NCBI GenBank assembly: GCA_028753945.1
Contig: JAPNXP010000009.1
Location: forward strand, 2,666,001 to 2,730,000
Reading direction: 5' to 3'
DNA length: 64,000 nt
From: Hexactinellida sp. DTS-2022
Lineage: Eukaryota > Porifera > Hexactinellida
Shown: piece by piece, positions 3,094 to 64,000 of the stretch
Position numbering within the stretch: the stretch's first letter is position 1
Layout: every line of letters begins with the position of its first letter
Notes under the pieces: generated by a model
What the model was told of the DNA's origin: nothing
Databases searched by the model: none
What the model saw: the letters and a program-made list of their open reading frames with translations, nothing else
Program-made: the position numbers and the translations under genes

Positions 3094-5432
3094 CAGGGGT
3101 GTCCAAACTTTTTTTCGAAGGGCCACAGCAAATAGAAATATGTTGTCGCGGGCCGCACACATTAACGCTGACAATAAATGTTAAATATGAGTTTGATATG
3201 TTCTATGGTAAATTTATTGTAAGTAATTATCTAATTCATGCTATACTATAAATGTAGAAAATTATTAATGCGACAATTGGCAATGTTTAGTTGACACGAG
3301 TGATTCTATATTTGGGGTAATTGAAGAACTTGCTATTCTGAGAGAACATTCAAGATTGTTGTCAGTGATTCGAGTTCTACTTTTACACTTGATATTTTTC
3401 ATTCTGGAAAACACCTGTTCGCATATATATGTGCTGCCGAAAAGAGAGGACATTAAAAGTGCGTGCTCGTATATTCCTGGATATTTCTCCTTTGATACAT
3501 ATGTTTTGTAAAAATCAAGTACACTTACTTGTTCAAATTTCTCTTTTAGATTTGAATCGCATTGATATCAATACACTCCATCTGTAGATTTTCAGTTATA
3601 GAAGCAATATTTATGGAAAACGGAGATGAAAAAGGCAGAAATCTGAACTATGTATTTTAAAATCCTGGAATCTTTCGTCGAATTCTTCTTTTAAAGTCCA
3701 GATTAATTTGACGTATTTTTCAGGTTCAGCCACTTTGTGCTTGGATAGTATTGGAAAGTGAGCATAATTTTTTACCCTGAATTGAGATTCCCATAAACGG
3801 AGCTTTATTTGAAAACATTTGATGTGATCAAACATCATAGATATAAGTTGGTCCTTTCCCTGTAGTCTCGTATTCAATTCATTTAAGTGAAAAGTAATAT
3901 CTATTAAGAATGCAAAGTCACATAACCATTCGTTGTCTTGGAATTCAGGAATTGATTGCCCTTTCTGTTGCATAAAGTTCTGAATTTCATCTTTCAGTTC
4001 GAACACTCGTTTTAACATTTTACCACGACTCAGCCATCTAATTTCAGAATAGTAAACAACGTCACCAAATTGTGAATCCAAATCATCAAGTAATTCTTGA
4101 AACTGCCTGTGATTAAGGCTTCTGGAACGAATAAAATTGACTGTTTTAACAACGACTTTCATTACGCTTTCTATTTTAAGAGATTTAGAACATAAGTTCT
4201 CTTGATGAATAATGCAGTGGTATTTCATTAATTTTGTATTCCCTGATAGCAGTGCTTCATTTTCAATCAACTTTACAAGGCCTTCTCGTTTACCTACCAT
4301 TGCTGGGGCTCCATCTGTCGTTATCCCAGAAATCTTCCCCAAGTGTAAAGAGAATCTAGATAATGTAGCTGTAACTGCCTTATAAATTTTATTCGCTGTC
4401 GTAGTATCTTTCAATGAGACTAAAGAGGCCATCTCTTCAGGATATTAAAATCTTTGTCAATACCTCGTACAAAAATTGCAACTTGAGCAGTGTCCGTAGC
4501 ATCTGTACTCTCATCAAGGGCTAATGAAAAATACTTGAAATGTGAAGCTCGTAAGATTAACTTGTCTTCAATTGAGCTAGATAACTCAACTATTCGTCTT
4601 GATACAGTCTGGTGAGATAGACTTATCTTTGAAATCTGATCTATTTTGTCTGGGCATATTATTTCAGCAACACTAGTTAAACACTTCTTAATATATTCCC
4701 CATCTGAAAATGGTTTGGATTTTTTTGCAATAATTTCAGCAATTTTACAGCTGGCTTTTACGGATGATTCAGATTGGCACCTCATATTATTAAATATCTG
4801 ATGTTGTTTGGCTATGTTATTCTTTAATTCTATAATTTTATCTTTGCGATATTCTCCTTGAAAAGTGACGTATTCACTTGCATGTTTGGTTTCATAATGA
4901 CGTTTGATATTATATTCCTTGAGAACAGATATAGACTCTTTACATATGAGACAAATAGGTTTCATGTTAAAGTTAATGAAGGAATAGAGATCAGTCCATT
5001 TTTCCTGAAATACTCTTGATTCGTCTTCTATCTTCCTTTTCTTGATACATGGGGATGCCATTAATTATTTTATCTAATCTATTGTTAAAATACTGTGAAT
5101 TTCAAAGTTACTGTAGTAAATACGATAACTATCACAATTTTTAGGAATCATGAAACCTTTGTTGTTTTGGTGATTATTAATTATGGCAGTGCGCATATTG
5201 ATGCGAATCAAAAAATTAATTAGTCAATTTACAATAGGAAAACATATTAAGGAAATGTAGGTATTCGTAATTCAAAATTACTGAAATCAATACTATGTGA
5301 AATTATTATTACCTAAAGCACAACTATTGATGGAATAGGAAATTCAAACAGTCCAGCTTTCAGAAAAAAGCTATACTCAAAGTTAATTCGCGGGCCGCAT
5401 GCGGCCCGCGGGCCTCGGGTTGGACACCCCTG
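3094..5432 (-). mobile_element. Complete hAT transposon with 8-bp TSD
   Basis: The element starts CAGGGGTGTCCAA and ends TTGGACACCCCTG, a perfect 13-bp terminal inverted repeat. The 8-bp sequence CTTTAGAT is repeated exactly on both sides (3086-3093 and 5433-5440). Subterminal GC-rich CGGGCCGC motifs lie just inside each end, as is common in hAT elements. The single gene (3265-5061, minus strand) fills most of the 2339 bp. The undamaged ends and TSDs mark a fairly recent insertion, although the gene is now frameshifted. Confidence 0.95.
3265..5061 (-). pseudogene. hAT transposase with BED finger, frameshifted
   Basis: A cut-and-paste transposase of the hAT superfamily, in a lineage related to domesticated ZBED/FAM200-like vertebrate proteins. 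The first segment (5061 down to about 4437) begins with ATG and has a BED-type finger at residues 37-60 (CLIC, then HYETKH), then LALDESTD with the first catalytic Asp. A frameshift near 4437 moves to a second frame (to about 3611) carrying TTDGAPAMVGKREG with the second Asp, and RWLSRGKMLKR. After several breaks at 3454-3610 the first frame resumes to 3265 with the C-terminal dimerisation motif STYICEQVFSRMK. The summed length, about 600 codons, is normal for the family. Two frame changes make it inactive as read, though sequencing error cannot be excluded. Confidence 0.9.
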
Positions 5433-10069: not shown

Positions 10070-11336
10070 TACTGTGCCGACTATACTATAATATAGTGGC
10101 CCAGTATTGGTCTTAGTGCTTTGGTTAGTTGATATTTTTTATCCGTAGCCTCTCCACAGAACAGAGTTTTATTTACAAAGAGCCCAAATTTTCAGGATAT
10201 GTGTGTCATGGGTTACAGATGTGCACCTGGGGTCACGATTTTTGATTACATTTTTTTGAACACATTTTTGCACCTGTTTAATATTAAAACTGGCACAATA
10301 AATAGTACCCGAATATTCAATTTATAGGCATTCGATAGAGAATTAAATTCTACACCTTTTCACAGTGCACGAATTTTCAAATTTGCCTTAGTTTGTGCCA
10401 CTATTGAGTTGCAAATTTCCTTTGTTTACTAACACTTCAGTTCAATTGAAAGTGTTAAATCTAATTCTATTGTTTCTACTGGTGATTATTATATTGATCA
10501 ACTTGTGAGATCGAGTGGGCTTCTATTTTCCAATTGAAAACCGAGATTTTACATTCCATAACAACGAAGATTATGTGATTATATTTCCTTCTGCAAGAAT
10601 ACTCTTGTACTGTTATTATCCTGACGTAATTAATTATAATTAATTCCGTCAGTATATGACTTATATAGATGCTTCCAATTTGTTTATTAGGGGTTATCGA
10701 GTGTGCGGAATTGAAATTTGATAGCCAAATTAATTAATTAATTATTTATAACAAAATAATTAAACCTAATAAATATAAGTTGTCATTGAAATTGGTGTTA
10801 AATTATAAATAATATTAATAATTATTTATACTAATTAATTAAATATCATGAATCTCAGAGATCATAGAAGATAGAATCAAACTTTCAATTTATAAATTGG
10901 TCCTTATGGCACGTGCCACCTATACAAGTGGATCTTGACACCTTGAGGTCATGATGACATCGTTAAAAAACATTTGTGTTTTACAATTTTGTGAATTCGA
11001 TATTTAAAAAGGGTTGGTTGGTGTTGGGTATTGACCCAACACTCACATAAAAAATGCTGAGTCATCAGCTATTATATTCTACTCAAACTTGAATATCTCT
11101 AAAATGAAGTGAACTAAATGGAAACTTCCACCACTCTAAGGGTCGATGCCTTCTGAAACACCATTTTGAAATAATTTAACACCTTCATAGTCATGATGAC
11201 ATGGCGAAAAAAAAATCCAAAATTGCAGCCTGTGCCGACAGCATGTACCTTTGGTGGTTCTATCAATAAACCACCACCAAAATATAGTGCCACCAAAGGA
11301 ACATGCGTCGGCACAGGCTGCAATTTTGGATTTTTT
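10070..11336 (+). mobile_element. HP family element, copy A (forward)
   Basis: The copy starts ACTGTGCCGACTATAC and carries the conserved blocks of the family in order: CTCCACAGAACAGAGTTTTA, GTGCACCTGGGGTCACGATT, CCTTATGGCACGTGCC, CTTGACACCTTGAGG, AATATCTCTAAAATGAAGTG, and then a terminal hairpin (11210-11336). The same blocks in the same order occur in reverse at 21973-23127, and partly at 23708-25175, 29667-30396, 42724-43150 and 62644-64000. No long reading frame is present, so it is non-autonomous. The family is not one I recognise by name. Confidence 0.75.
11210..11336. repeat. Long hairpin of HP family
   Basis: The left arm AAAATCCAAAATTGCAGCC then TGTGCCGACAGCATG is mirrored by CATGCGTCGGCACAGG and CTGCAATTTTGGATTTT. 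The loop region holds GGTGGTT and AACCACC in further inverted pairs, so nearly the whole 127 bp can fold. Two open frames over it (11114-11323 minus and 11193-11375 plus) read the palindrome on both strands and are not genes. Confidence 0.9.
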
Positions 11337-11939
11337 ATGGTTTTGAAGGTATCAAAATGTGTCCGATATTGTTGATCAAAAATTGTTATTCCAGGTTCAA
11401 ATTACACTCACTCTACACCTTATTACCGATTTTTAAAAACTACACTAGTTACACAAATATTCGATAATTATTTAAATTTCGTGCCAAAATTACCTTGAAT
11501 TTTAATTTCAGATTGATTGTTCAAGGGGTATCGACTTTATTGTGCCCTTACCACTTGTAGCATTTCTTGGAAATGTGTTGTATCCATATGAATTTTGAAT
11601 ATATCTATATTGTGGACGTTTACTGGAAGTAATCAATTGCAGACTTGTTTTCTATGATAATTTGCGAATTTGAATTCAAATATATGTTCAAAATTATTTT
11701 GACTGATACTTTTACTGATAATTGAGGTGGTAGATTTAGTGAGATCATTTTTTCAATACTAGGAAAATTATTACCAAAAATGTAAAATCCTAAAATATTT
11801 CAACTTTGTGCAAAACTGAGATTTGGAACATTTCAAGTAATAAATGTACTGGTAGTCTGGTACACAGATTATTTGGCCAATGGATGTTAATCAAATTCGT
11901 GTGGTGGATTCCTTTATCCGTTAACTGTATAATAAATAT
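11337..11939. other. No gene seen
   Basis: AT-rich spacer. No feature assigned. Confidence 0.5.
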
Positions 11940-12510
11940 ATTTATCACAAGTTGGAAGAATATAGTAAGATTTACAGTTGAATTATTATAATTATCTCAA
12001 GTTAACAATATAATTAGATTTCACAGTTTATTGAATCTGATCTGTGAAGAAATATAGGAGATTTGCACTCCAATCATGGCACAAACTAAGGTAATTTTGA
12101 AATATCCTGAACTGTCAAAGGTGTATAATTTCATTCTCTTTATACATGTAAATTTATTCTAGATCATATTTTTTTTTTAATGGTATGATCCATTATTGGT
12201 TTAAATAGGTGTTAAATATATTTTATCAAAATCGTAACCAGATGTGCATCTAAAGACGGTCATACCGCACCTACATGCCGAGTTTCAGCTTTCTATCTCT
12301 AAAGATGTGCCCAGGGAACCGTCTTAGGAAGAAAGATAATACAAGTAGTGATTTCAATACTGGTCCACTACGTAGTATTCGGCCCAGCAAAAAAATAAGA
12401 AATTGCAGCTGTGCCGACAGCATGTTGCTTAGACGCACAATATTTGGTGGCTGATTAATTGAAAGTACCTCAAATGAAAAATGCTGTCGGCACAGCTGCA
12501 ATTTTGGATT
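11940..12510 (-). mobile_element. HP family element, truncated reverse copy
   Basis: The reverse complement carries the HP blocks seen in copy A: GCACAAACTAAGG (12070), AGACGGTCATACCGCACC (12253), and a rearranged first unit near 12350-12388 (GATTTCAATACTGGTCCACTA). It is followed directly by an HP hairpin (12394-12510). The order differs from copy A, because the hairpin here abuts the front end, which suggests a rearranged or nested copy. Confidence 0.6.
12394..12510. repeat. HP-type hairpin
   Basis: AAATTGCAGCTGTGCCGACA and GCAT are mirrored by ATGC and TGTCGGCACAGCTGCAATTT, with a loop of about 57 bases holding further short pairs. It is the same structure as at 11210-11336. Confidence 0.9.
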
Positions 12511-12872: not shown

Positions 12873-13290
12873 ACCTATAATACTCGTTGAAAGTTAACTT
12901 CTAGGTTGATTTTGAATTTTCATTAATTTTTAACCTATTTGTGTAAACAACTACAACAAATATTAATAATATAAATTTATGAATGCGAAATTCGTGTTCA
13001 GCATAGTTGTTTGCCCATATTACCCGTTGAAAGCTAAATTCTAGTTTGATTTTGAATTTTCGTTAATTTGTTTACCTATTATTGTAAACAACAGCAACAA
13101 ATATCCATATTAGTAGTTATTGAATGCGAAATTCGAAATCAGCCTACATGTTTACTATACTAAAATTTTAAAGTTAGATTATATCTCAATTATAAATGCG
13201 GTTTCTATACCCCTATCACTTTAATACAATCCGGACACACAAATACACAAACAACAATCGAGTTTTAATAATAACGATATGGAATGAACC
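12873..13290 (-). mobile_element. Helentron-like non-autonomous element with tandem units
   Basis: Two tandem units of about 140 bp (about 12875 and 13016) share GTTGAAAGYTAA, TTGATTTTGAATTTTC, GTAAACAAC and GAATGCGAAATTCG. They are followed by a tail (13195-13275) that is the reverse complement of 37870-37960: TTGTTGTTTGTGTATTTG, GTCCGGATTGTATTAAAGTG. At 37868-38788 the same parts form a larger element ending in mini-hairpins. Here the hairpin end is missing, so the copy is truncated. Confidence 0.65.
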
Positions 13291-14591: not shown

Positions 14592-16431
14592 AGGGACTTC
14601 TTTAATATAGGAACTGTAAACTTCGTTTTACGGTAAAATTAGCGTAGGCCTAAAACAGAATTGTTACTCATTGATATCCCGTGTTCCGCTAATGCTAGAC
14701 ACAGGAAATGTATTATTGTCGTATAGGAAGTCATATTTTGGGAGTTCAACGGTCATATTGGTTTATCGAAAATATTTGTGGAATTTAAGTTATGCGATGT
14801 TCACACCTTTGCATATATGGTAATATTGTTAAAATCTAAATTCAGATAATAAATAATCCCATACATAATCCCATACTCTGAATTTATTTATCATGATCAT
14901 TAGGATTAGTCAGAATAAAAAGGAATATATTTGAAAGAAACTTATCAAGATTTTTTAATAAACAACATAATGACAGATATCTGATAGGTAAGAATTAGCT
15001 AAACTACAATACAGGGCCGTGGCAACCCTCCTGTGGAGAGTTCTAAAATAATAATATAGGCTAGGGGAACGCCGTAGGTAAATCAATGTGATCTACTGAG
15101 TCCCTAAATATGAATTCCCATTTCCCATTCGCCAATAATAAATTTCATATGAATAAAGTTAACTAATCTCGAGATTTTAACAATATTACCATATATGCAA
15201 AGGTGTGAACATCGCATAACTTACATTCCACAAATATTTTCGATAAACCAATATGACCGTTGGACTCCCCAAATATGATTTCCTACACGACAATGATACA
15301 TTTCATATGTATAAAGTTAACTAATCTCGAGATTTGAACAATATTACCATATATGGAAAGGTGTGAACATCGCAAACTTACATTCCACAAATATTTTCGA
15401 TAAACCAATATGACCGTTGGACTCCCAAAATATGACTTCCTTTACGACAATAATACATTTCCTACGTCTAGTATTAGCGGATTACGGGATATCAATGAGT
15501 AACAATTCTGTCTTAGGCCTACGCTAATTGTACCGTAAAATGCAGTTTACAGTCCCTATTAGGGGCGCCGAACTTTTAAAAAAGTCCAAAACTGAGAGGG
15601 TGCTCGAAACCTTTAATAAAACTTTATAGAAGTTTTAATAACAACAATGCATAAATTAATCGATGCTAAGACTAAAATTCTGCACTGTATTTTTCTTCAA
15701 ATAATAACCGGGAACATCATTGATTTTCCGAGGGTATGATCATTCATAGGATACGCTATAAATGCTAAATACTGTGAGATATAAACGCTGAAAAGTTCAT
15801 AAAATAATATATGATATACATATTAACAAATCAGCAATCTCAAGTTTTGAATTAAAAAAGTTCACAAAATGGGTAATTTGCCAATTTGTTTATTTAAAAT
15901 TCCTTAAAATTTTCCAAGGAGTTTTGGGTTAATTGTCAAAGTTAGGTATTCCTCCAGCAGGGTAACCAGATGACTACTTTAAAAGAAGGACACGTTTAAA
16001 ATTAAAGAGATCGCAGGTTGAGAAACCCAGTATAGTAGAACATTTGAGAATAAAGGCTTTTGTACAAGGACATGGGCTAGTATACTTTAATAATTCTGAG
16101 TATGGTTTAACAACAAAGTTATTTAGACAGGTAGAGGAGTGGATTATTAGACTGAACAGACTGTAAACAATTTTTTAAAAGGTACTAAAGGAGACAGTGT
16201 AAGAAAGCAGTTGCATGACTGAGAAGGACTGTCCTTCTAAAAATAGGACATTTTGGTTCTCTGCTCGTCAGGTCCTTTGGCCAAAACCCTCCACCCCCTG
16301 GCCCACCCACAAGAGCCCCCCCCCTCAAGAGCCCCCCATCGCCCCTCCGGGTTTGACACGAGGGGGGACTCGGGCCTCCCCTGCCCCCCCGGGTTCGGCG
16401 CCTATGGTCCCTATATTAAAGAAGTCCCTGA
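14592..16431. mobile_element. Nested inverted-repeat element
   Basis: CAGGGACTTCTTTAATATAG at 14592 is mirrored by CTATATTAAAGAAGTCCCTG at the right end. Inside, the block at about 14600-14830 (including GTAGGCCTAAAACAGAATTG and CGGTCATATTGGTTTATCG) recurs inverted at 15185-15555, where its distal part appears twice in tandem. The 8-bp flanks are similar but not identical. A second C-rich segment (16290-16400, ending GGTTCGGCGCCTATG) looks like another hAT end within it. Confidence 0.7.
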
Positions 16432-21972: not shown

Positions 21973-23127
21973 AAAATAAATAATTACAGCTGTGCCGATA
22001 ACATGTTCCTTTGAATGTACTATCCTTAGTGGTTGGTCGTTTGATAGTACGTCCAAAAGAACATGCTCTCTGCAAATCTGTAATTTTAGATTCTTTGCTT
22101 TGTCATCGTCGATATAAAGGTTCATAAAACCGTTTCAGGCAGAAATGATCCTTTGTGTGTTGGAAATTTCTTTCTAGCTGACTTCATTTCAGAGATATTC
22201 ATGTTTTGTAGAATATACATAGTATGTCTTGAATCAGCATTTTCTATATTCATGTTAGTGTTCTACCGTAGCCAACCAACACATTTCGAAATATACAATT
22301 CACAAAATTGTAAACACACTTTTTTGACGATGTCATCATCACCTCAAGGCGTCAAGACCCATTTGTACAGGTGTCACGTGGCATGATGATCAATTCCTAA
22401 TTTTTTAAAGTTTGATTATATCTTGTATCACCTCTGAGATTTGTGATATTTAGCTAACTAGTATAAATAATTATTGATATTATTTTAATAATTTAACACT
22501 AATTTCAATGTCAACTTACATTTATTAAGTTTAATTATTTGGAATAAATAGCCATTTTAAAATAAACTGGCCAAAATATACAATTTGGAAGCGTCAATAT
22601 ATTTTAAATACAAATTGAATTAATTGTAATTAAATACCTCAGTGTATTAATAGTACAAGAGTATTCTTGCAAAATGAAATATATTCAATTAATCTGTCGT
22701 TGTTATGGAATATATAATCTTAATTGTCAATTAGAAAATAGAAGCCTACTCGATCTCACAAGTTGAATCAATATAATTATCACAAGTTGAAACAATAGAA
22801 TTAGATTTAACACTTTCAATTGCACAAATGTGTATGTAAACAAAAGAAATATCCAACTCAATTGTGGCACAAACTAAGCTCAATTTGAAAATTCGTGCAC
22901 TGTGAAAAGGTGTAAAATTTAATTCTCTATCGAATGCATATAAATTGAATATTCTGGGACTATTTATTGATCCTGTTGTAACATTAAACATGTGTAAAAT
23001 TGAGTCCAAAAGATTGTAATAAAAATCGTGACCCCGTGTGCACATTTGTAACCCATGAGCCACCTATCCTGAAATTTTGGGTTCTTAGTTAATAAACTCT
23101 GTTCTGTGGAGAGGATGCAGAAGAAAA
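21973..23127 (-). mobile_element. HP family element, copy B (reverse)
   Basis: Read on the minus strand from 23127, it carries the HP blocks in the same order as 10070-11336: CTCCACAGAACAGAGTTTAT, ACGGGGTCACGATTTTTATT, TTGTGCCACAATTGAGTTGG, CGCCTTGAGGTGATGATGAC, AATATCTCTGAAATGAAGTC, and a hairpin at the far end (about 21973-22098). The first unit (ACTGTGCCGACT...) is absent, so the front end is truncated. No coding capacity is seen. Confidence 0.75.
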
Positions 23128-23707: not shown

Positions 23708-23890
23708 ACTGTGCCGACTATGTTATTAATATAGTATAGTGGCCCAGTTCTAATCTCACTGCCCTTAATATATATTTTACTGTGCCGAATATACTATAGT
23801 GTAGTCGCCCAGTTCTAATCTCACTGCCTTTATTACTGTGCTGACTATACTATAGTATAGTGGCCCAGTACTGATCTTACTGCCTTTATT
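23708..23890. repeat. Tandem array of HP front ends (3 units)
   Basis: Units start at 23708, 23779 and 23835, each with ACTGTGCCGA or a one-base variant, then a self-complementary CTATACTATAGTATAG-like core, GGCCCAGT and TCACTGCC or TTACTGCC. The spacings are 71 and 56 bp. A (TTA)n run follows. Confidence 0.9.
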
Positions 23891-23976
23891 ATTATTATTA
23901 TTTTCTCCGTAGACGGTGCCCTGGGCAGAGCTTTATAGTTAATGGCCTGAAACTTGGCATGTAGGTGCGTTGTTAG

Positions 23977-24321
23977 TCCAGACATGGGGTCAAGCCCTTT
24001 CAATAAGGCTTAAGTCCAAGCCCATCCCTAAACAGAAGGGCTTAAGCCCAAACCCTTTTTCTAAGCCCTTTTTGAAAAAGGGCTTAAGTCCGGACTTAAG
24101 TCTTTTACTCTAATTATTTAGAAATCCATACCGTATTTTATTGAATAAGTGCCTTGAAAAGAGCTTGAAAAAGGGCTTGAAACTCATCTATAAAGGGCTT
24201 AAGTCCAAGTCCTGACTTAAGCCCTTTTATTAAAGGAGGACTTAAGTCCGGATTTAATCCCTCTCAAAGATGGGCTTAAGTCCAAAGGGCTTAAGCACTT
24301 TGGGGGTTGGCCCCATGCCTG
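23977..24321. mobile_element. 345-bp MITE made of GGGCTTAAGTCC repeats
   Basis: The ends TCCAGACATGGGGTCAA and TTGGCCCCATGCCTG are inverted. GTTGTTAG and GTTGTTAC flank it (7 of 8), and other HP copies show the uninterrupted target. The interior is built almost wholly from AAGGGCTTAAGTCC-type units in both orientations. Confidence 0.85.
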
Positions 24322-24955
24322 GTTGTTACCGTCTAATTTGCACCTGGGGTTACGATTTTTTATTAACAAATTTTGGACACATTTTTAACACCTTTCAAAG
24401 AATTTCTGGTCCATAACTAAATAAATGTTATACTAAACCCCAATCTTTATTTCACCATTGGATTCAGCATAAAATTTTGCGTTTGATGGGAGAAGACAAA
24501 TTTTAAGAATGGGTTTAATTCATGCCATAAATGGAGGTTGAAATTTCTTTGTTTACTCACACTTCAGTTTCAGTAAAAGTGTTAAATCTAATTCTATTGT
24601 TTCAACATGTAATAATTATATTGATTTAACTTGTTTAATCTTACTTTATTGTTTCAACTTGCGATGATTATATTGATTTAACTTATGAATTCCAGCTGGC
24701 TTCTATTTAATTGTAGTATTACTGGATTAAATATAATAATATAATATAAGGAATTTGTTAACTCAACTCAACCAACAGTGGATAACATTGCTAAATAAAT
24801 AACTAATAATATAATTTATTATCAATACATAATGGATGAATGGCACTAAACTCTAGATGGTTTATGATAGAAACAAACTTCAAATTTATCTACCGTTCCT
24901 AGTGACTCGGACCAATTAACAAATGGTTTTTGACACCTTGAGGCATTGATGACTT

Positions 24956-25078
24956 GGCAAAAAAATCCAAAATTGCAGCCTGTGCCGACATCATGTTCCT
25001 TCTATCAATAAACCACCAACAAAATATAGTGCCACCAAAGGAACATGCGTCGTCACAGGCTGCAATTTTGGATTTTCT
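24956..25078. repeat. HP-type hairpin
   Basis: AAAAATCCAAAATTGCAGCC and TGTGCCGACATCATG are mirrored by CATGCGTCGTCACAGG and CTGCAATTTTGGATTTT. It is very close to the hairpin at 11210-11336, including the AATATAGTGCCACC loop segment, so the two copies are recent relatives. Confidence 0.9.
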
Positions 25079-25175
25079 TTCTCCGTAGACGGTCCTCTGG
25101 CCAATGCTTTATAGTTGATGGGCTGAAATTTGGCATGTAGGTGCGGAGTCACCGTCTTTGATGAGCAATTATTTA

Positions 25176-26814: not shown

Positions 26815-27100
26815 AGAATAAAAAAGAATTCGATTTCCCTACAACATGTTCCTTTGGAGGCAATATATTAGTTGATTGTGCCTCCAAAAGAACATGCTGT
26901 TGGCACAACTGTAATTTTGATTTTTTCTTCATGTCATCATCACTATAAAGATGTTAAACTATTTCAGAGTGTTGGAAATTTCCTTTTACCCCACTTCACT
27001 TCAGAGATATTCTAGTTCAGTATGAATTTAATTGGTGATGAGTTAGCGTTTTTTCTGTGCATGTTGGGTGTCCCAACGCCAACCAACATATTCGATTGTA
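26815..27100 (-). mobile_element. HP family fragment with hairpin (reverse)
   Basis: A hairpin (CAACATGTTCCTTTGGAGGC with GCCTCCAAAAGAACATGCTG) is followed, in reverse sense, by the HP blocks GTTGGAAATTTCC, CACTTCAGAGATATTC and GGTGTCCCAACGCCAACCAA. The rest of the element is missing. The open frame at 26735-26932 reads the hairpin and is not a gene. Confidence 0.75.
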
Positions 27101-29121: not shown

Positions 29122-29666
29122 CCTAGCTAATGCACTAGGAAACGATGTTTCATAAAATAGCCGAATTATTAGTCACATGACCATATATGGACATAATTGG
29201 AACCAAATCGGCTGACACATTTTCTGTACTAGATAGAATTTAGCTTCCAAAATTAAATGTTCAGAATAGCCTACTTCCCATACCTAAATAATACATTTGG
29301 GAACGATATTTCGTAAAATAGCCGAATTATTAGTCACATGACCATATATGGACATAATTGGAACCAAATAGGCTACCACATTTCTGTACGAGATAGAGTT
29401 TAGCTTCCAACAATAAAATGTTCAGAATAGCCGACTTCATATACCTAAATAATACATTTGGAAGTAATATAAGGTTAAGTAGCTGAGTAATAGTCATATT
29501 ACCAATTTACCATATATGGTCATTAAAATGGCATTATTGGAACCCTAGATGTCGAATTCTAGGTGCCTCCCGATCTTAGATCATTATATATACATTTTTC
29601 TAGTTGGACAACAAATTTGATGCTTTTATCACTAAATGCACAATTGTTAAGCCATCCGCCCCACTA

Positions 29667-30396
29667 TTGGTCCATAGTATAGTGACCCAGTTCTAATCTC
29701 ACTGCATTTATTTTCTTTCTCCGTAGACGGCGCACAGGCCGGTGCTTTATACTTGATTGGTTGAAAATTCAACAAGGTGCAGTCTAATTTACATTGGGGT
29801 TACGATATTTATTAACAAATTATGGCCACATTTCTAACACCTTAAAAAAACTCTTTAATGTTAAATTAATTCAACATTTTATATTTGCCATTGGATTCAC
29901 CATAAAATTATGCTTCTTATGGGTTTATACAAATTTTAATATTGGCTTCAGTTCATGCCATAAATGGAATGTGAGCTTTGTTTGTTTACTCACACTCCAG
30001 TTTGAGTAAATTCTTTCAACTTGAGATAAATATATTGATTCTAATAGGCTTTGTTTAATTATAGTATTGTTAGACAATGGATTAAAGCTAACTAAAACTC
30101 AAGTAATTTGATTGAATTAATAAATTCACTGTGGCTATTAATTAATTTAATTTTATGAATTACTTAAATGGTTAAATCTACGAATTAAATCAATGTGAAT
30201 AGTCTCAGAGATGGTGCAAGATAAAACAAACTTCCAATGTATCAATTGATCCTTATGGCACGTAACACATAAACCTATTGCACTTAACACTTGAGGTGAT
30301 GATGACAACGTCAAAAAATGTGTTTTACAATTTTGTGATTTTGATATTATGACTGTATAATACACTGCTATAGATTATATTATAGTCGGCACAATA
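29667..30396 (+). mobile_element. HP family element, copy D (forward)
   Basis: It begins inside the first HP unit (CCATAGTATAGTGACCCAGT), followed by TTTCTCCGTAGACGGCGC, ATTGGGGTTACGATATTT, CCTTATGGCACGTAACAC and CTTGAGGTGATGATGACAAC. It ends TATAGTCGGCACAATA, the inverted form of the front end TACTGTGCCGACTATA. This is the clearest case in which both ends look like a TIR, and it has no terminal hairpin block. It directly abuts the 27219-29664 element. Confidence 0.7.
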
Positions 30397-37867: not shown

Positions 37868-38788
37868 ATCTATATTATTAAATCTCGATTGTTGTGTGTT
37901 TGTGTGTTTGTGTGTGTGTTTGTCCGGATTGTATTAAAGTGATGGGGGACTAGAAACCGCAATTAATATTGGGATATAAACTAACTTTCAAATGTTATAA
38001 TAGGTTAAAAAGTATGCCGAACACGAATTTCGCGTTTATAAATTTCTCATAATATTATTTGTTGTTGTTGTTTACACAAAATAGGTAAATAAATTAATGA
38101 AATTCAAAATCAACCTAGAAGTTAGCTTCCAACGGGTATTATAGGTAAACAAGTATGCCGAACACGAATTTCGCGTTTATAAATTTCTCATATTAATATT
38201 TGTTGTTGTTGTTTACACAAAATAGGTAAACAAATTAATGAAAATTCAAAATCAACCTAGAAGTTAGCTTCCAACGGGTACTACAGGTAAACAAGTATGC
38301 CGAACACGAATTTCGCGTTTATAAATTTCTCATATTAATATTTGTTGTTGTTGTTGTTTCACAAAATAGGTAAACAAATTAATGAAAATTCAAAATCAAC
38401 CTAGAAGTTAGCTTCCAACGGGTATTATAGGTAAACAAGTATGCCGAACACGAATTTCGCGTTTACAAATTTCTCATATTAATATTTGTTGTTGTTTTTA
38501 CAAAAATAGGTAAACAAATTGATTAAAAATAAAAATCAACCTAGAAGTTAGCTTTCAACAGGTATAATAGGTAAACAAGTGTGCTTACCACGAAATTCGC
38601 ATTTATAAATTTATATTATGAAAAAAAAGTTAAAACTATGGAAATTTTCTAAATGGATGTATATAACTCCCTTTCTGCCATTTTCCATGGTAGAAAGGGT
38701 GAGGAGTAAGGCCGCATAGCGGCCGTTAACTTGAGGTGCGTAGCACCGATCCGTCGCAAAGCGACCGAGACCGAAGGGCTCGTCTAGT
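37868..38788 (+). mobile_element. Helentron-like non-autonomous element with minisatellite
   Basis: It starts ATCTATATTATTAAATCTCG, followed by a (TG)n/TTTG run and TCCGGATTGTATTAAAG. It ends GAAGGGCTCGTCTAGT. The 3' part packs four short hairpins: GGCCGC-ATA-GCGGCC, GGTGC-GTA-GCACC, GTCGC-AAA-GCGAC and CGAG-ACCGAAGGG-CTCG. The middle is a tandem array (38000-38600). Short 3' hairpins and the lack of TSDs fit Helitron/Helentron biology. It inserted into the hAT of 37375-40918. Confidence 0.75.
38000..38600 (+). repeat. Minisatellite, about 4.5 units of 120-130 bp
   Basis: Units begin GTAAACAAGTATGCCGAACA or a close variant and contain ATTTCGCGTTTATAAATT, a (TTG)n run, AATAGGTAAACAAATT and AACCTAGAAGTTAGC. 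They start near 38005, 38137, 38279, 38420 and 38563. Adjacent units are highly similar, with differences mainly in the TTG count, so expansion is recent. Related units occur inverted at 12875-13152. Confidence 0.9.
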
Positions 38789-42723: not shown

Positions 42724-43150
42724 CACTGTGGCACTATACTTTAGTACAGTGGCCAGTATTGAAATCACTACCTTTATTACTGTGCCGACAATACTATAGT
42801 ATAGTGGCCCAGTATTGAAATCACTGCCTTTATTATTTTTTCTATATTTTTTCTCCGTAGACGGTGCCCTGCCCAGAGCTTTATAGGATGAAACTTTTAT
42901 GGGATTAAACTTGGCATTAAGTGCGAAATGACCGTCTAATTTGCACCTGGGTCCTGGGGTAGCGATTTTTTATTAACAAATTTTTGACACCTTTCGAAAT
43001 TTGTTTGGTCCATAACTCAAAATTTTTATATTAAAGCCCCAATTTTATTTCACCAATGGATTCACCATAAAATTCTACGTCTGATTGGTTTATACAAATT
43101 TTCCTATTGTGTTTAGTTCATGTCATAAATGGGGTGTGAACTTTATTTGT
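42724..43150 (+). mobile_element. HP family element, copy E (5' part)
   Basis: Two front units (42724, variant ACTGTGGCACTATAC; and 42779, ACTGTGCCGACAATAC) are followed by TTTTTCTCCGTAGACGG, CCGTCTAATTTGCACC and ATTCACCATAAAATTCTACG. Similarity stops near 43150, where a Helentron-like 5' end begins. Confidence 0.75.
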
Positions 43151-43151
43151 T

Positions 43152-43330
43152 TTAATTATCTATCTATGTATTAAAAGCGGAATTGTTGTGTGTGTGTGTG
43201 TGTGTGTGTGTGTTTGTTTGAAAATTTGTATACAGGGGTATTTTTGTACTGCGACAACGATCTATTGGTTTTTGAAGCAAAATAACGGGATTATGACGTC
43301 ACAGTTTCGAAAAACGTTTATTTTGTACTA
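43152..43330 (+). mobile_element. Helentron-like 5' end
   Basis: ATCTATCTATGTATTAAAAG and CGGAATTG are followed by a long (TG)n run and GACGTCACAG. This matches the 5' end type of 37868 and 55795 (CTATATTAAAA or CTATATTATTAAA, then G/T-rich sequence). Its 3' partner is probably the hairpin array at 45195-45333, with the hAT MITE 44158-44983 inserted between. Confidence 0.55.
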
Positions 43331-58129: not shown

Positions 58130-59430
58130 TAAAGCCGGAAGGGTTATAAACTCGGCTTAATACAATATACGTACTTATAGTAGGCTATGGTGAAAATAGC
58201 ATTCGGAGATGTTAGGAATATGCCCACATTTTCTAAACGCTGTCCTTGACCGTTTGTTAATGGTAATACAAAAGGCAGGACGAATTGGAAACTGCCTCCT
58301 TCTGAGTACAAACGGAAAGTCTGAGTCAGATGGAGTAATGGGAACGCGGGAAATAAAACTCGCTACCCTTATGAACACCTATAGCAATTTCAGCGTCAAT
58401 GATGCGATTCAGGAATACATTTACAGTTAACCGAGTTCCGTTACACATTCCTTGAGTCGGATCAAGACTGACAATAAAATAATAAACGCGTATACCTTAA
58501 GGTACAGTCGATGAGGAGGCAAACCATTAGATGTAATATAATTTAAGAATTCAGTGAGGTACATAGCCGCATGCTCCTCACCTACCGAATCTGCGCTTAT
58601 TAACGTACTCGCTTCCCCAGGTTTCAGCTTCATAACGCATTGATTTATACAATCATTCTTAGGACACATAAAACTACGGCGAGAAATATAATCTGGATTA
58701 TTGTAGTTCACTTTAATATCGCCGTAAGTAGCAGCAACCAAGTCAGAAACTGACTCACCTGCTACTACGAATTTGTGGTCCACTTGAATCATATGATTCT
58801 CATCCTCCGGATCCGCACCTTCTCCATCTCTCAAAATGAATTTGGAGTAGTCTCTAACTTGGGATGCATTACCTGAAGATAAATTACAGAGTCGCATGTT
58901 TATAGTGAGTTTAAGAACCTTAACATGACTCCAGAGAGGCGATCTATTCAGACAGGCTGACACACATCAGCTTCGGTATCATGTCTGATTACAGGAAGAA
59001 TTTGACGGAAATCACTTCCAAACACAATAACTTTGCCACCGAATGGAATATCGCATGAACAGAGATCTCTAATGCACGGTCGATCCACTCTGCAGCATGT
59101 CTATGTGTCATAAGAGCCTCATCCCAAACAAAGTCTGGTGCGCTGAATTAATAAACCTGCTAAGGCGCTATGTTTGGAAATACTGCAGACAGAGATTTCA
59201 TTCAATTGCATAGGGACCTTCATCCTAAACAGTCCTACCACAATATAGGAGCAGTGCTGCTATACCGGATGAAGCCATTGCTGATGCTATATTGCCCTGT
59301 TAAAGACCTTGGTTAACAGCGTGATTATAAAGGAACTTTTTACTGTTCCTTCCGGTCCAACGATAAAGAATGCATTTTGGTACGAATTATTATCGTTAAC
59401 AGCTCCTATTAATTACACCTACCTTGGCTT
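58130..59430 (-). pseudogene. Helitron Pif1-like helicase, decayed
   Basis: A rolling-circle transposon helicase read on the minus strand from about 59400. AFFIVGPEGTVKSSFI is the Walker A region (canonical GPGGTGKT, here degraded). VIVFGSDFRQILPVI-type sequence follows at about 59030-58980. The 178-codon open frame (58963-58427) has LISADSVGEEHAAMYLTEFL and GLPPHRLYLK, matching SADSV...PTEFLNSL..SGLPPHRL.LK. VPITPSDSDFPFVLRRRQFP, then IRPAFCITINK, at 58340-58250 is the terminal motif before the SQGQT helicase box. Several stops break the gene. The Rep domain is not present upstream, so the copy is 5'-truncated or shuffled. Confidence 0.88.
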
Positions 59431-60757: not shown

Positions 60758-61117
60758 TAACTAGTAGTTTGGGGGGAAGCACGACAGTTCGCATCACGAC
60801 AACTCGCAACAGACAATTCGCAACTAATCTGATTGGTCAATACTATTTCATTTTTTTAGATCATAACCACAGGTTTATTCTTCCTTTTCTTAAGAAAACC
60901 ATACAATAAATAGTAAAAGAAAATAACGTTATAGGAACAATTGAGAATAGATGTGTTTATTATACACCTCTATTGATTCAATAGTGTAATTCGTTGTATA
61001 TTTGCTATTTGCTTTCAACACTTCAAGTGACCTCTTATAAACAAGTGGGTCATCGTATAAATATATGTTGGTACAAATTATTCGTATTACTTGTATTAAT
61101 CGCAGTTACTTTGCATC
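60758..61117 (+). promoter_or_regulatory. 5' end region of the MULE element
   Basis: GGGGGGAAGCACGACAGTTC, then GACAACTCGCAAC and GACAATTCGCAAC at 60774-60820 form a repeated ACRAYTCGCAAC motif of the kind found at MULE ends. The rest is AT-rich up to the ATG at 61118. A matching inverted end downstream of the gene was not found, so the boundary is tentative. Confidence 0.4.
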
Positions 61118-62547
61118 ATGGCAGAATTTCCTCAATCATTCACTCTGATCAGGTCTCAGAGAGGATTTTATAAATTAGTTGAAGGAGGTTACATGTATGG
61201 AAAGCAAAGGAGAATAGGAGATGTAACCCATTGGCTCTGTGAACAAAGAGGGTTATGTAAAGCAATAATACATACCCAAGGAGGAGAGATAATTAAGCGA
61301 ACAAATATCCATCTCCATGCACCAGATGCACAAGCTGTTAATTGTTGCGAAGTGAAAGCAGGAATGAAGAGAAAAGCAATGCACTCGCAAGATACTTCAC
61401 ACCAAATAGTAGGTGAAGAACTCCAGATGGTGTCGGAAGCACAGCTGCTAAGTTGCCCAAGCTTGATAGCCTTAAACGTACCATACAGCGTGAGAGAGTG
61501 CGCCACCTCGCAGCTCCAGTACAACCCACTACACTGGAACAGCTCAATTTACCAGAAGAATATACACGAACATTCAAAGGTGAACAGTTCCTCTTATATG
61601 ATTCAGGTCCAGAGACACAGATAATCCTGATTTTCGGGACACAGCGTAACCTGGAAATGTTGGAGTTGTCTAGAATCTGGTTGGCCGATGGCACGTTCAA
61701 GACGGCTCCCTTACTATTTACACAGGTATACGTTATACATGCATTGCGAGGAGGTCCGGACCTGACGAAGGATGGTCATTTATTACAAAGTCTTTTCGTG
61801 CTACTACCGAACAAAACGGAAGCAACTTATACGAAGATGTGGGAACAAGTCCGGCTTCTTTGTCCACTGGCCAATCCCGAAGAGATTCTGATGGATTTTG
61901 AGAAGGCTGCAATCAACAGTTTTAAGCAAACATGGCCTGCTTCTGTGGTGAAAGGATGTTTCTTTCACCTCACACAAAATCTATGGCGCAAGGTGCAGGC
62001 TGCAGGATTACAAGTTGTGTACTCCCAGGACCAAGAACTTGCTATCCGTATCCGTATGATTCCAGCTCTTGCGTTTGCTGCTCCCTTCGAGGTACCTAAC
62101 CTATTTAATGAAGTGGCTGCGCATCTTCCTACGCCAGAAGCAGACGATATAATACAGTATTTTGAGAGGACATATATTGGGCGTACACTCCCAGGTGGTG
62201 CATACCAACAGGCACTGTTCCCCATCAGCATGTGGAACTACCATTTTGACACAGCTTTCGGATTACCACGTACAACGAATGCAGTTGAAGCATGGCATCG
62301 TAGTTTCAATGCTACAGTCGGGTGTCATCATCCTAACGTATGGAAATTTCTATCTGCACTAAAGCGCGAACAGGGTCTAATAGAATTAAGGCAGGCCAAA
62401 TATATTGCTGGGAATAAGCCATCCAAGAGGAAGAAAGTCCAAGCTAATGAAAAAGCTCTAAGGGACCTAGTTGGGAGTTACCTACACCGTCCCAGATTAG
62501 AATTTTTAAGAGGTGTAGCACATCATTTCAACATAGGAACAGACTGA
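61118..62547 (+). pseudogene. MULE transposase with FLYWCH finger, one frameshift
   Basis: A Mutator-like transposase that cuts and pastes its own element. The ATG at 61118 opens a frame with a FLYWCH zinc finger at residues 10-66 (GFYKL, WLCEQRGLCKA, then NIHLHAP). Near 61435-61450 the frame must shift to join the second segment, open to the stop ending at 62547. That segment has WLADGTFKTAP (first Asp), ILMDFEKAAINSF (second Asp), GCFFHLTQNLW (the C-x-x-H of MULEs) and TNAVEAWHRSF (a likely catalytic Glu). About 475 residues in all, a normal family length, with one frame change and no internal stop. It is the best preserved transposase here. The frameshift could be real, a sequencing error or a missed small intron. 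Confidence 0.9.
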
Positions 62548-62643
62548 TAACACACTATTATTTTATCGTAGTTATTATATACAAGTAATACAACATTCAT
62601 TTATATTTTTGGTTAAGTATAATTAAACGGTTAAATCTCTTAT
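62548..62643. other. 3' flank of MULE gene
   Basis: AT-rich; no terminal inverted repeat found before the HP array begins. Confidence 0.4.
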
Positions 62644-62942
62644 TACTGTGCCGACTATACTATAGTATAGTGGGCCAGTTCTAATCTTACTGCCTTGGTT
62701 ATTATTATTACTGTGCCGACTATACTATAGTATAGTGGCCCAGTTCTAATCTTACTGCCTTGGTTAGTTATTACTGTGCCGACTATACTATAGTATAGTG
62801 GCCCAGTTCTAATCTTACTGCCTTTAATATTTTTACTGTGCCGACTATACTATAGTATAGTGGCCCTGTATTGGAATCACTGCCTTTTTACTGTGCCGAC
62901 TATACTATAGTATAGTGGCCCAGTATTGGAATCACTGCCTTT
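62644..62942. repeat. Tandem array of HP front ends (5 units)
   Basis: Units start at 62644, 62710, 62773, 62835 and 62890 (spacings 66, 63, 62 and 55). Each has ACTGTGCCGACTATAC, the palindromic core CTATACTATAGTATAG, then GGCCCAGT (GGGCCAGT in the first unit, GGCCCTGT in the fourth). The units are almost identical, so the array expanded recently. Confidence 0.95.
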
Positions 62943-64000
62943 ATTTATATTATTATTATTATTATTATTTTTTCTCCGTAGACGGTGCCCTGGCCTGAGC
63001 TTTATAGTTGATGGGCTGAAACTTGGCATGTAGGTGCGTATGGACCGTCTAATTTGCACCTGGGGTTACGATTTTTGATTAACGAATTTTTGACACATCT
63101 TTAACACCTTTCAAAATTTGTCTGGTCCATAACTCAAAATATGTTTTACTAAACCCCCAAATTTTATTTCACATTTGGATTCACCATAAAATTCTGCGTC
63201 TGATGGGAGAGGAATATTTTCAAAAATATGTTTAATTTCTGCCATAAATGGGGTTTGAAATTTCTTTGTTTACTCGCACTTCAATTTCAGTAAAAGTGTT
63301 AAATCTAATTCTATTGTTTCAACTTGTAATAATTATATTGATTTAACTTGTTAAATCTTACTCTATTGTTTCAACTTGAGATAAATATATTGATTCAACT
63401 TAAAAATTCCAGCTGGCTTCTATTTAATTGTAGTATTACTATACAATGGATTAAATTAAATATAATGATATAAGGAATTTGTTGACTAAACTCAAATCAC
63501 CGTGGATAACATAGCTAAAATAAATAACTAATAATTTAATTTATTATCAATAAATAATGAATGAATGGCATTAAACTAAAGATGGTTTATGATAGAACCG
63601 TTAAGATTTTACATACCACAACAACGACAGATAAAGTGATTATATTTATTTCGCGAGAATATTCTTGCACAATTAATGTACTGACGTAATTTATTATAAT
63701 TAATTCCTTTTGTATTTAACTTATAGACGGTTCCAATTGGATTATTGGGGTTATCGAGTGCGCTGAATTCAAATATGATAGTGAAATTCGATTTAAATTA
63801 ATAATAAGTGCAAATAATTGAACTTTATTTATTTTGCTGTACATAATAATGATGTTAAATTATTAATTTAGTAATTAAATATTTATACTAATTAGCTAAA
63901 TTTCATTAATCTCAGAGATGATACAAGATAGAAACAAACTTTCAATTTATCAATTGGTCCTTATGCCACGTACCACCTATACAAGTGAGTCTTGACACCC
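62943..64000 (+). mobile_element. HP family element, copy F, runs off window
   Basis: After the array and a (TTA)n run come TTTTTTCTCCGTAGACGG, TGCACCTGGGGTTACG, TTCACCATAAAATTCTGCG, CAACTTGTAATAATTATATT, TTCTATTTAATTGTAG, GGTTATCGAGTGCGCTG, ATGCCACGTACCACC and CTTGACACC at the window end. This is the longest uninterrupted front part of the family. The hairpin end would lie past 64000. The open frame 62877-63059 (minus) is not a gene. Confidence 0.8.

Follow-up and report, generated by a model that had tools for sequence, protein, structure and literature searches.

The window analysed here is a stretch of 64,000 nucleotides (C18:2666001-2730000 of a 112-Mb assembly; about 0.3 Mb in all was read). 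It contains several copies of a repeat built in a constant order: a front P, made up of an imperfect palindrome of 35 nt and a short spacer, then an AT-rich linker, a body B (with several length classes), and, at the 3′ end, a hairpin H of ~115 nt. Front units are mostly 55-77 bp apart and form rows of 1 to 10, the longest array among the fetched loci being that of L028 with 10 units. One base from the 5′ end is CTGTGCCGAC, which recurs in opposite orientation within the outer hairpin arm; this inverted repeat, GTCGGCACAG, is ~20 nt from the 3′ end, and the outer arm runs GTCGGCACAGGCTGCAATTTTGGATTTTT into the flanking DNA. The ordered blocks proposed by an earlier, sequence-only reading do form a real repeat: ACTGTGCCGACTATAC has 11 matches with at most two mismatches in the window (mean of 0.03 in shuffles) and 6254 exact matches genome-wide (112 Mb, 18 contigs; 0 for the reversed control). 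The same anatomy is present beyond the window edge, where the window copy continues, and in 19 further 10-kb stretches. The 19 loci L010-L028 come from the start of the pattern-match list and hence all from the first 2.36 Mb of C1, and L033-L035 were chosen for large or regular arrays.

On the plus strand of the window, a single complete copy occupies 10071-11336, with one P, a body, a hairpin at 11215-11331 and the 3′ end GGATTTTTT. Next to it, at 11341-12509 on the minus strand, lies a degenerate remnant, with a hairpin (12395-12509) followed on that strand by body fragments. The back end of another minus-strand copy is at 21976-22892 (hairpin 21976-22091, then body); it had been taken, from 21973, for a copy with a front unit, which it is not. 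At 23708-25157 (plus strand), three P (23708-23869) precede an interrupted body and a hairpin (24965-25073), after which a second body begins; a foreign stretch rich in AAGGGCTTAAGTCC-like repeats splits the first of these bodies at about 23971-24327. A hairpin and body end survive as a remnant at 26845-27069 (minus strand). The copy at 29656-30348 (plus strand) is degenerate, with a partial P, body pieces and no hairpin detected; it is followed, as the sequence-only reading had stated, by an inverted front-like 16-mer (30380-30395, two mismatches). Lastly, at 42725-43152 (plus strand), two P (42725/42779) precede only the first part of a body. The single-, two- and three-unit arrays of fronts at 10071, 42725/42779 and 23708-23869, and the five-unit array described below, are all found where that reading had placed them.

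At the right edge of the window, five front units form an array at 62645-62924 (plus strand), recognized by sequence matches, repeat analysis and the folds of two units. The AT-rich linker between the last front unit and the body (62940-62973) is like the linkers at other P-B and H-B junctions and is the proposed landing site for more copies. The body of the first unit (62974-64000) extends to a hairpin at window-equivalent 64273-64387, the first of this copy, beyond which the continuation (L009) adds another three body and hairpin units, to about window-equivalent 68642. For the copy announced from 62644, the front array thus holds and the copy end does not, since the window edge cuts the copy and all its hairpins lie outside.

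The cluster is lodged in a FLYWCH-MULE (plus strand, 60775-64000 and on) bounded by inverted repeats that start at 60775 and end at window-equivalent 68853, each of ~150-210 bp with short tandem subrepeats inside, and provided with a 9-bp duplication, AGTTTGGGG. Its FLYWCH and MULE domains, in different, overlapping frames at 61100-62547, end only ~100 bp upstream of the array, a proximity that would fit a front array representing the tandem terminal inverted repeat of this neighbouring MULE. However, the inverted repeats and the 9-bp duplication of the MULE lie outside the cluster, and two paralogues of the MULE 3′ part are devoid of the cluster. With its ends and duplication elsewhere and with empty sites available, a MULE with tandem terminal repeats was rejected, and we give that reading practically no weight; with ends and a 9-bp duplication to itself, the MULE is the host only.

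These two paralogues, 97% identical, display the empty site CTTATTTTCTTTTAC, compared with CTTATT-cluster-T-run-CTTTTAC in the filled site (both read directly from the sequences). Five fronts and four body and hairpin units therefore fill one T-rich site. At L014, a single-copy insertion, two paralogues without the element are 98% identical to the joined flanks; the empty site is CTCCCATTTTTTCATTCG and the filled one CTCCCATTTTT-element-CATTCG, the element ending in a T-run. In both insertions tested, the entry point is a T-run and no duplication of the target can be discerned (one within the T-run itself would be indistinguishable), and 28 of 31 array fronts are preceded by at least two T. 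The whole stretch from P to H is missing from the empty sites at both insertions, in agreement with the earlier proposal that the repeat is mobile, has its front multiplied and ends in a giant hairpin. Among what would speak against it, that proposal had named beforehand that array and hairpin belong to unrelated repeats; the two are lost together at both empty sites and both flank the autonomous copy described below.

A stretch of 131 nt around the first hairpin of the window copy folds as DNA with -46.8 kcal/mol (z -13.6) and contains TGTGCCGAC in its stem, so that the large back-end hairpin reusing front sequence is confirmed. The front units fold too, with z about -4.3 for two units of the 62645-62924 array. 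In H, the arm lengths co-vary: where the conserved blocks are separated by 3 or 4 bases on both sides, as in 67 hairpins, the two spacings are equal in 57 (Fisher p 7e-5), and between these blocks the arms are exactly complementary in 45 of the 68 hairpins parsed for this analysis (the comparison of neighbours below had 88). The hairpin motif has 5050 genome matches, which can fall on both arms of one hairpin and therefore do not amount to a hairpin count. Such a ~115-nt 3′ hairpin may act as a strong replication terminator.

At least 151 matches to the PF14214 profile occur and were split into two groups by score and frame length. At the C13 locus, of the second group, the order is H, P2, body, H, P3, body, open reading frames of 437, 292 and 1700 aa, body pieces, H, body; a Rep and helicase partner, as is characteristic of Helentrons, is here inside an element with the same ends. 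The 1700-aa frame contains Rep, PIF1 helicase and endonuclease domains above the Pfam cut-offs. In this protein, the one examined, the endonuclease is at the C-terminus (PF03372, 27.4 bits for a cut-off of 24.5; PF14529, 28.2 for 27.4), and an OTU protease is below cut-off (E 0.082). The 292-aa frame is a DUF6570, upstream of the Rep-helicase frame (L029:6991-7866, minus strand). At the predicted fronts of further intact frames, family DNA is present in six of six cases (read in 800-bp stretches placed from the C13 copy), with three P each at L043 and L045 and a hairpin running into a body at L042, L044, L046 and L047. The predicted back ends have H in two of three cases (L048, L050) and only body at L049.

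The other Rep group, represented by one copy with a 1930-aa frame (L030, C1:13279500-13289499), was rejected as partner: no P or H occurs in its 10 kb, and the comparison of these 10 kb with B gives only two chance matches of 15-16 bases. It constitutes a second Helitron-like group, with Rep, PIF1 and OTU domains and no endonuclease called in that frame, and several copies of this type have long open frames. In the window itself, a PIF1-like helicase fragment at 58427-58966 (minus strand) is perhaps a Helitron remnant.

We interpret the repeat as a non-autonomous Helentron (HINE), a rolling-circle transposon for which full-length relatives in the same genome encode the Rep-helicase-endonuclease; the probability, a joint figure that includes self-nesting in the linker (see below), is about 0.8. 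The structure, which the sequence-only reading could not name, has the features of Helentrons and HINEs, in a group with described multi-5′-terminus elements (PMC4067079, PMC3627910, PMC5148889; here and below, comparisons are with the accessible parts of the cited papers). The name is given on these matching features, and a named family with identical ends could already exist. Shared with Helentrons, HINEs and DINE-1-like elements (PMC4067079) are the Rep-helicase-endonuclease partner, insertion at T-T without a discernible target duplication, a T-rich site with T-runs at the edges, an inverted repeat near both ends, a palindrome near the 3′ end and a very high copy number. The palindrome is far larger here, however, with ~115 nt and the inverted repeat contained in it, whereas mite HINEs have stems of 5-10 bp; and the rows of up to 10 fronts and the trains of bodies are unlike the HINEs described there.

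In FoHeli of Fusarium oxysporum (PMC5148889), several 5′ termini with one 3′ terminus and asymmetric terminal inverted repeats are likewise found, and the multiple 5′ termini are attributed to self-insertion. There, short duplicated fronts occur in some copies, whereas here clusters with several fronts and several bodies are common in the loci read; also, FoHelis are without the endonuclease domain, unlike this family. Helitron2 (PMC3627910) is similar in its 5′-terminal hairpin that includes the 5′ inverted repeat, in its 3′ repeat ~20 nt from the end, and in its insertion after a T-run without duplication. But its 3′ inverted repeat is upstream of a separate hairpin, while here it is within the outer hairpin arm, and the endonuclease, absent from Helitron2 by description (PMC4067079), is present in the 1700-aa protein. 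A strict Helitron2 is rejected on these two points, the 5′ hairpin being in accord with it. A canonical Helitron (Helitron1) is rejected as well, with neither 5′-TC, nor CTRR-3′, nor insertion between A and T. The oyster Cg_HINE (PMC7492417) is alike in that HINEs carry tandem repeats and spread them genome-wide, but its array is internal, whereas in the present family it is the very 5′ end that is repeated. Arrays of plant Helitrons (Xiong et al. 2016, as summarised in PMC12628747) also have many 5′ ends and one 3′ end and are attributed to rolling-circle amplification of truncated copies; here, on the contrary, there are many body and hairpin units, mostly diverged. In the same source, site preference is named as a cause of dimers. 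The kind of element is thus already known, and the novelty lies in the scale, in a 3′ hairpin of very large size and in clusters built like brackets. No report of such a bracket-like architecture was found among the titles and abstracts that the literature searches listed, for some of them a part of the hits, and no paper containing the 16-mer in that literature, most subscription papers being outside its coverage.

Concerning the growth of the clusters, read-through of the circle predicts H-to-P junctions, and self-insertion into the linker predicts H-to-B junctions. The exact junctions in the genome are 3700 P-P, 1067 H-to-B without P and 384 H-to-P (the two H patterns were each restricted to a single hairpin variant without mismatches, and a P end demands more of a match than a B end, 11 fixed bases vs. 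7). Classes of P and body were compared in 25 clusters, with 137 P and 90 bodies and with '?' classes excluded from concordance; five of the 30 P-containing groups, in which no body start was detected, were set aside (L013+, L015-, L023-, and one per strand of L18_20). Adjacent P and body classes agree in 43 of 43 pairs. For non-adjacent P and bodies paired as brackets, agreement is 34 of 38 (25.4 on average after shuffling, p 0.00015), with the discordant pairs in four clusters. Bodies outrun fronts by 2 units, vs. 8.5 in shuffles (p 0.006), and in 2 clusters vs. 5.3 (p 0.024); one of these two clusters (L017) probably has a false body start, and in L18_20 an R-class body has a front only if an older element, 2.2 kb upstream, is included. 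The clusters tend to a single class. When the order is tested inside clusters, the nesting value of 34 of 38 compares with 82% at random and is not significant (p 0.11; 31 of 39 for the opposite order; 17 of the 25 clusters, the other 8 having no countable non-adjacent pair), and the nesting order is therefore suggestive only.

Neighbouring hairpin regions are mostly diverged, with only one of 51 usable pairs at least 98% alike (among 52 pairs, one, at L023, compares overlapping windows). The similarity of neighbours nevertheless exceeds that of elements taken from separate loci (medians of 0.87 and 0.76, p 0.0003), an excess that read-through or local copying would give too. A true tandem of recent origin stands at L035 (C1:5469000-5474999), where near-identical P-P-B-H units recur every 1567 bp and the hairpin regions are 95.6% and 99.8% similar.

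From these data, accretion by self-insertion is rather probably the main process, with replication or exchange adding tandems. By analogy with the Helitron literature, the enzyme would start at P and stop at H, and the junction counts suggest the AT-rich linker behind P as a favoured target. An element entering that linker would convert P-B-H into P-P-B-H-B-H, and further rounds of insertion would yield rows of fronts and then trains of body and hairpin units. If copying ran from the outermost P as far as the first H, the products would have several fronts and one hairpin, and would therefore account for the excess of fronts. More tentatively, and with less than even chances, the element may carry its own landing pad: the linker would attract copies of the same family, the clusters would grow from within like nested brackets that record the order of insertion, and the extra outer fronts would offer several start sites to the innermost element and favour its spread.

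The main competitor is rolling-circle read-through, or loss of the terminator, with concatemers formed in one event and fronts and bodies multiplied during replication. The near-identical units 1567 bp apart at L035, the 384 exact H-to-P junctions and the closer likeness of neighbours all point that way, and such a mechanism has been proposed for the plant Helitron arrays mentioned above, in which many 5′ ends share one 3′ end (PMC12628747). We hold it to be unlikely as the general process, given that H-to-B junctions without P are 2.8 times as frequent as H-to-P (though the P-end pattern is the stricter), that near-identity is confined to a single usable neighbour pair, and that differing body classes occur side by side. 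Still less likely is a multiplication of P after insertion, independent of the bodies, by unequal crossing-over or slippage; the shortness and close spacing of the P units and the abundance of P-P junctions would suit it, but arrays mix P spacer classes (for example L028 and L11_12), and the numbers of fronts and bodies are not independent. With self-insertion as the preferred reading, the earlier idea of a repeat that multiplies its own terminus in tandem is better expressed as the arrival of new elements immediately behind an existing terminus, although the tandem of L035 is homogeneous.

Multiple 5′ ends of the Helitron type have been explained both ways, by self-insertion and by replication errors. 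Here, the junctions number in the thousands, front and body classes are linked and the partner frames are long and open, and the two models can therefore be separated by counting. The genome shows a route from a transposon to a satellite-like array.

Elsewhere in the window, two overlapping frames at 3611-5064 (minus strand), one of them with a Spin-doc zinc finger (PF18658), perhaps belong to a transposase-type gene. Tandem arrays are present at 37996-38612 (period of 144 bp), 12877-13143 (141 bp), 15133-15461 (157 bp) and 29141-29461 (161 bp).
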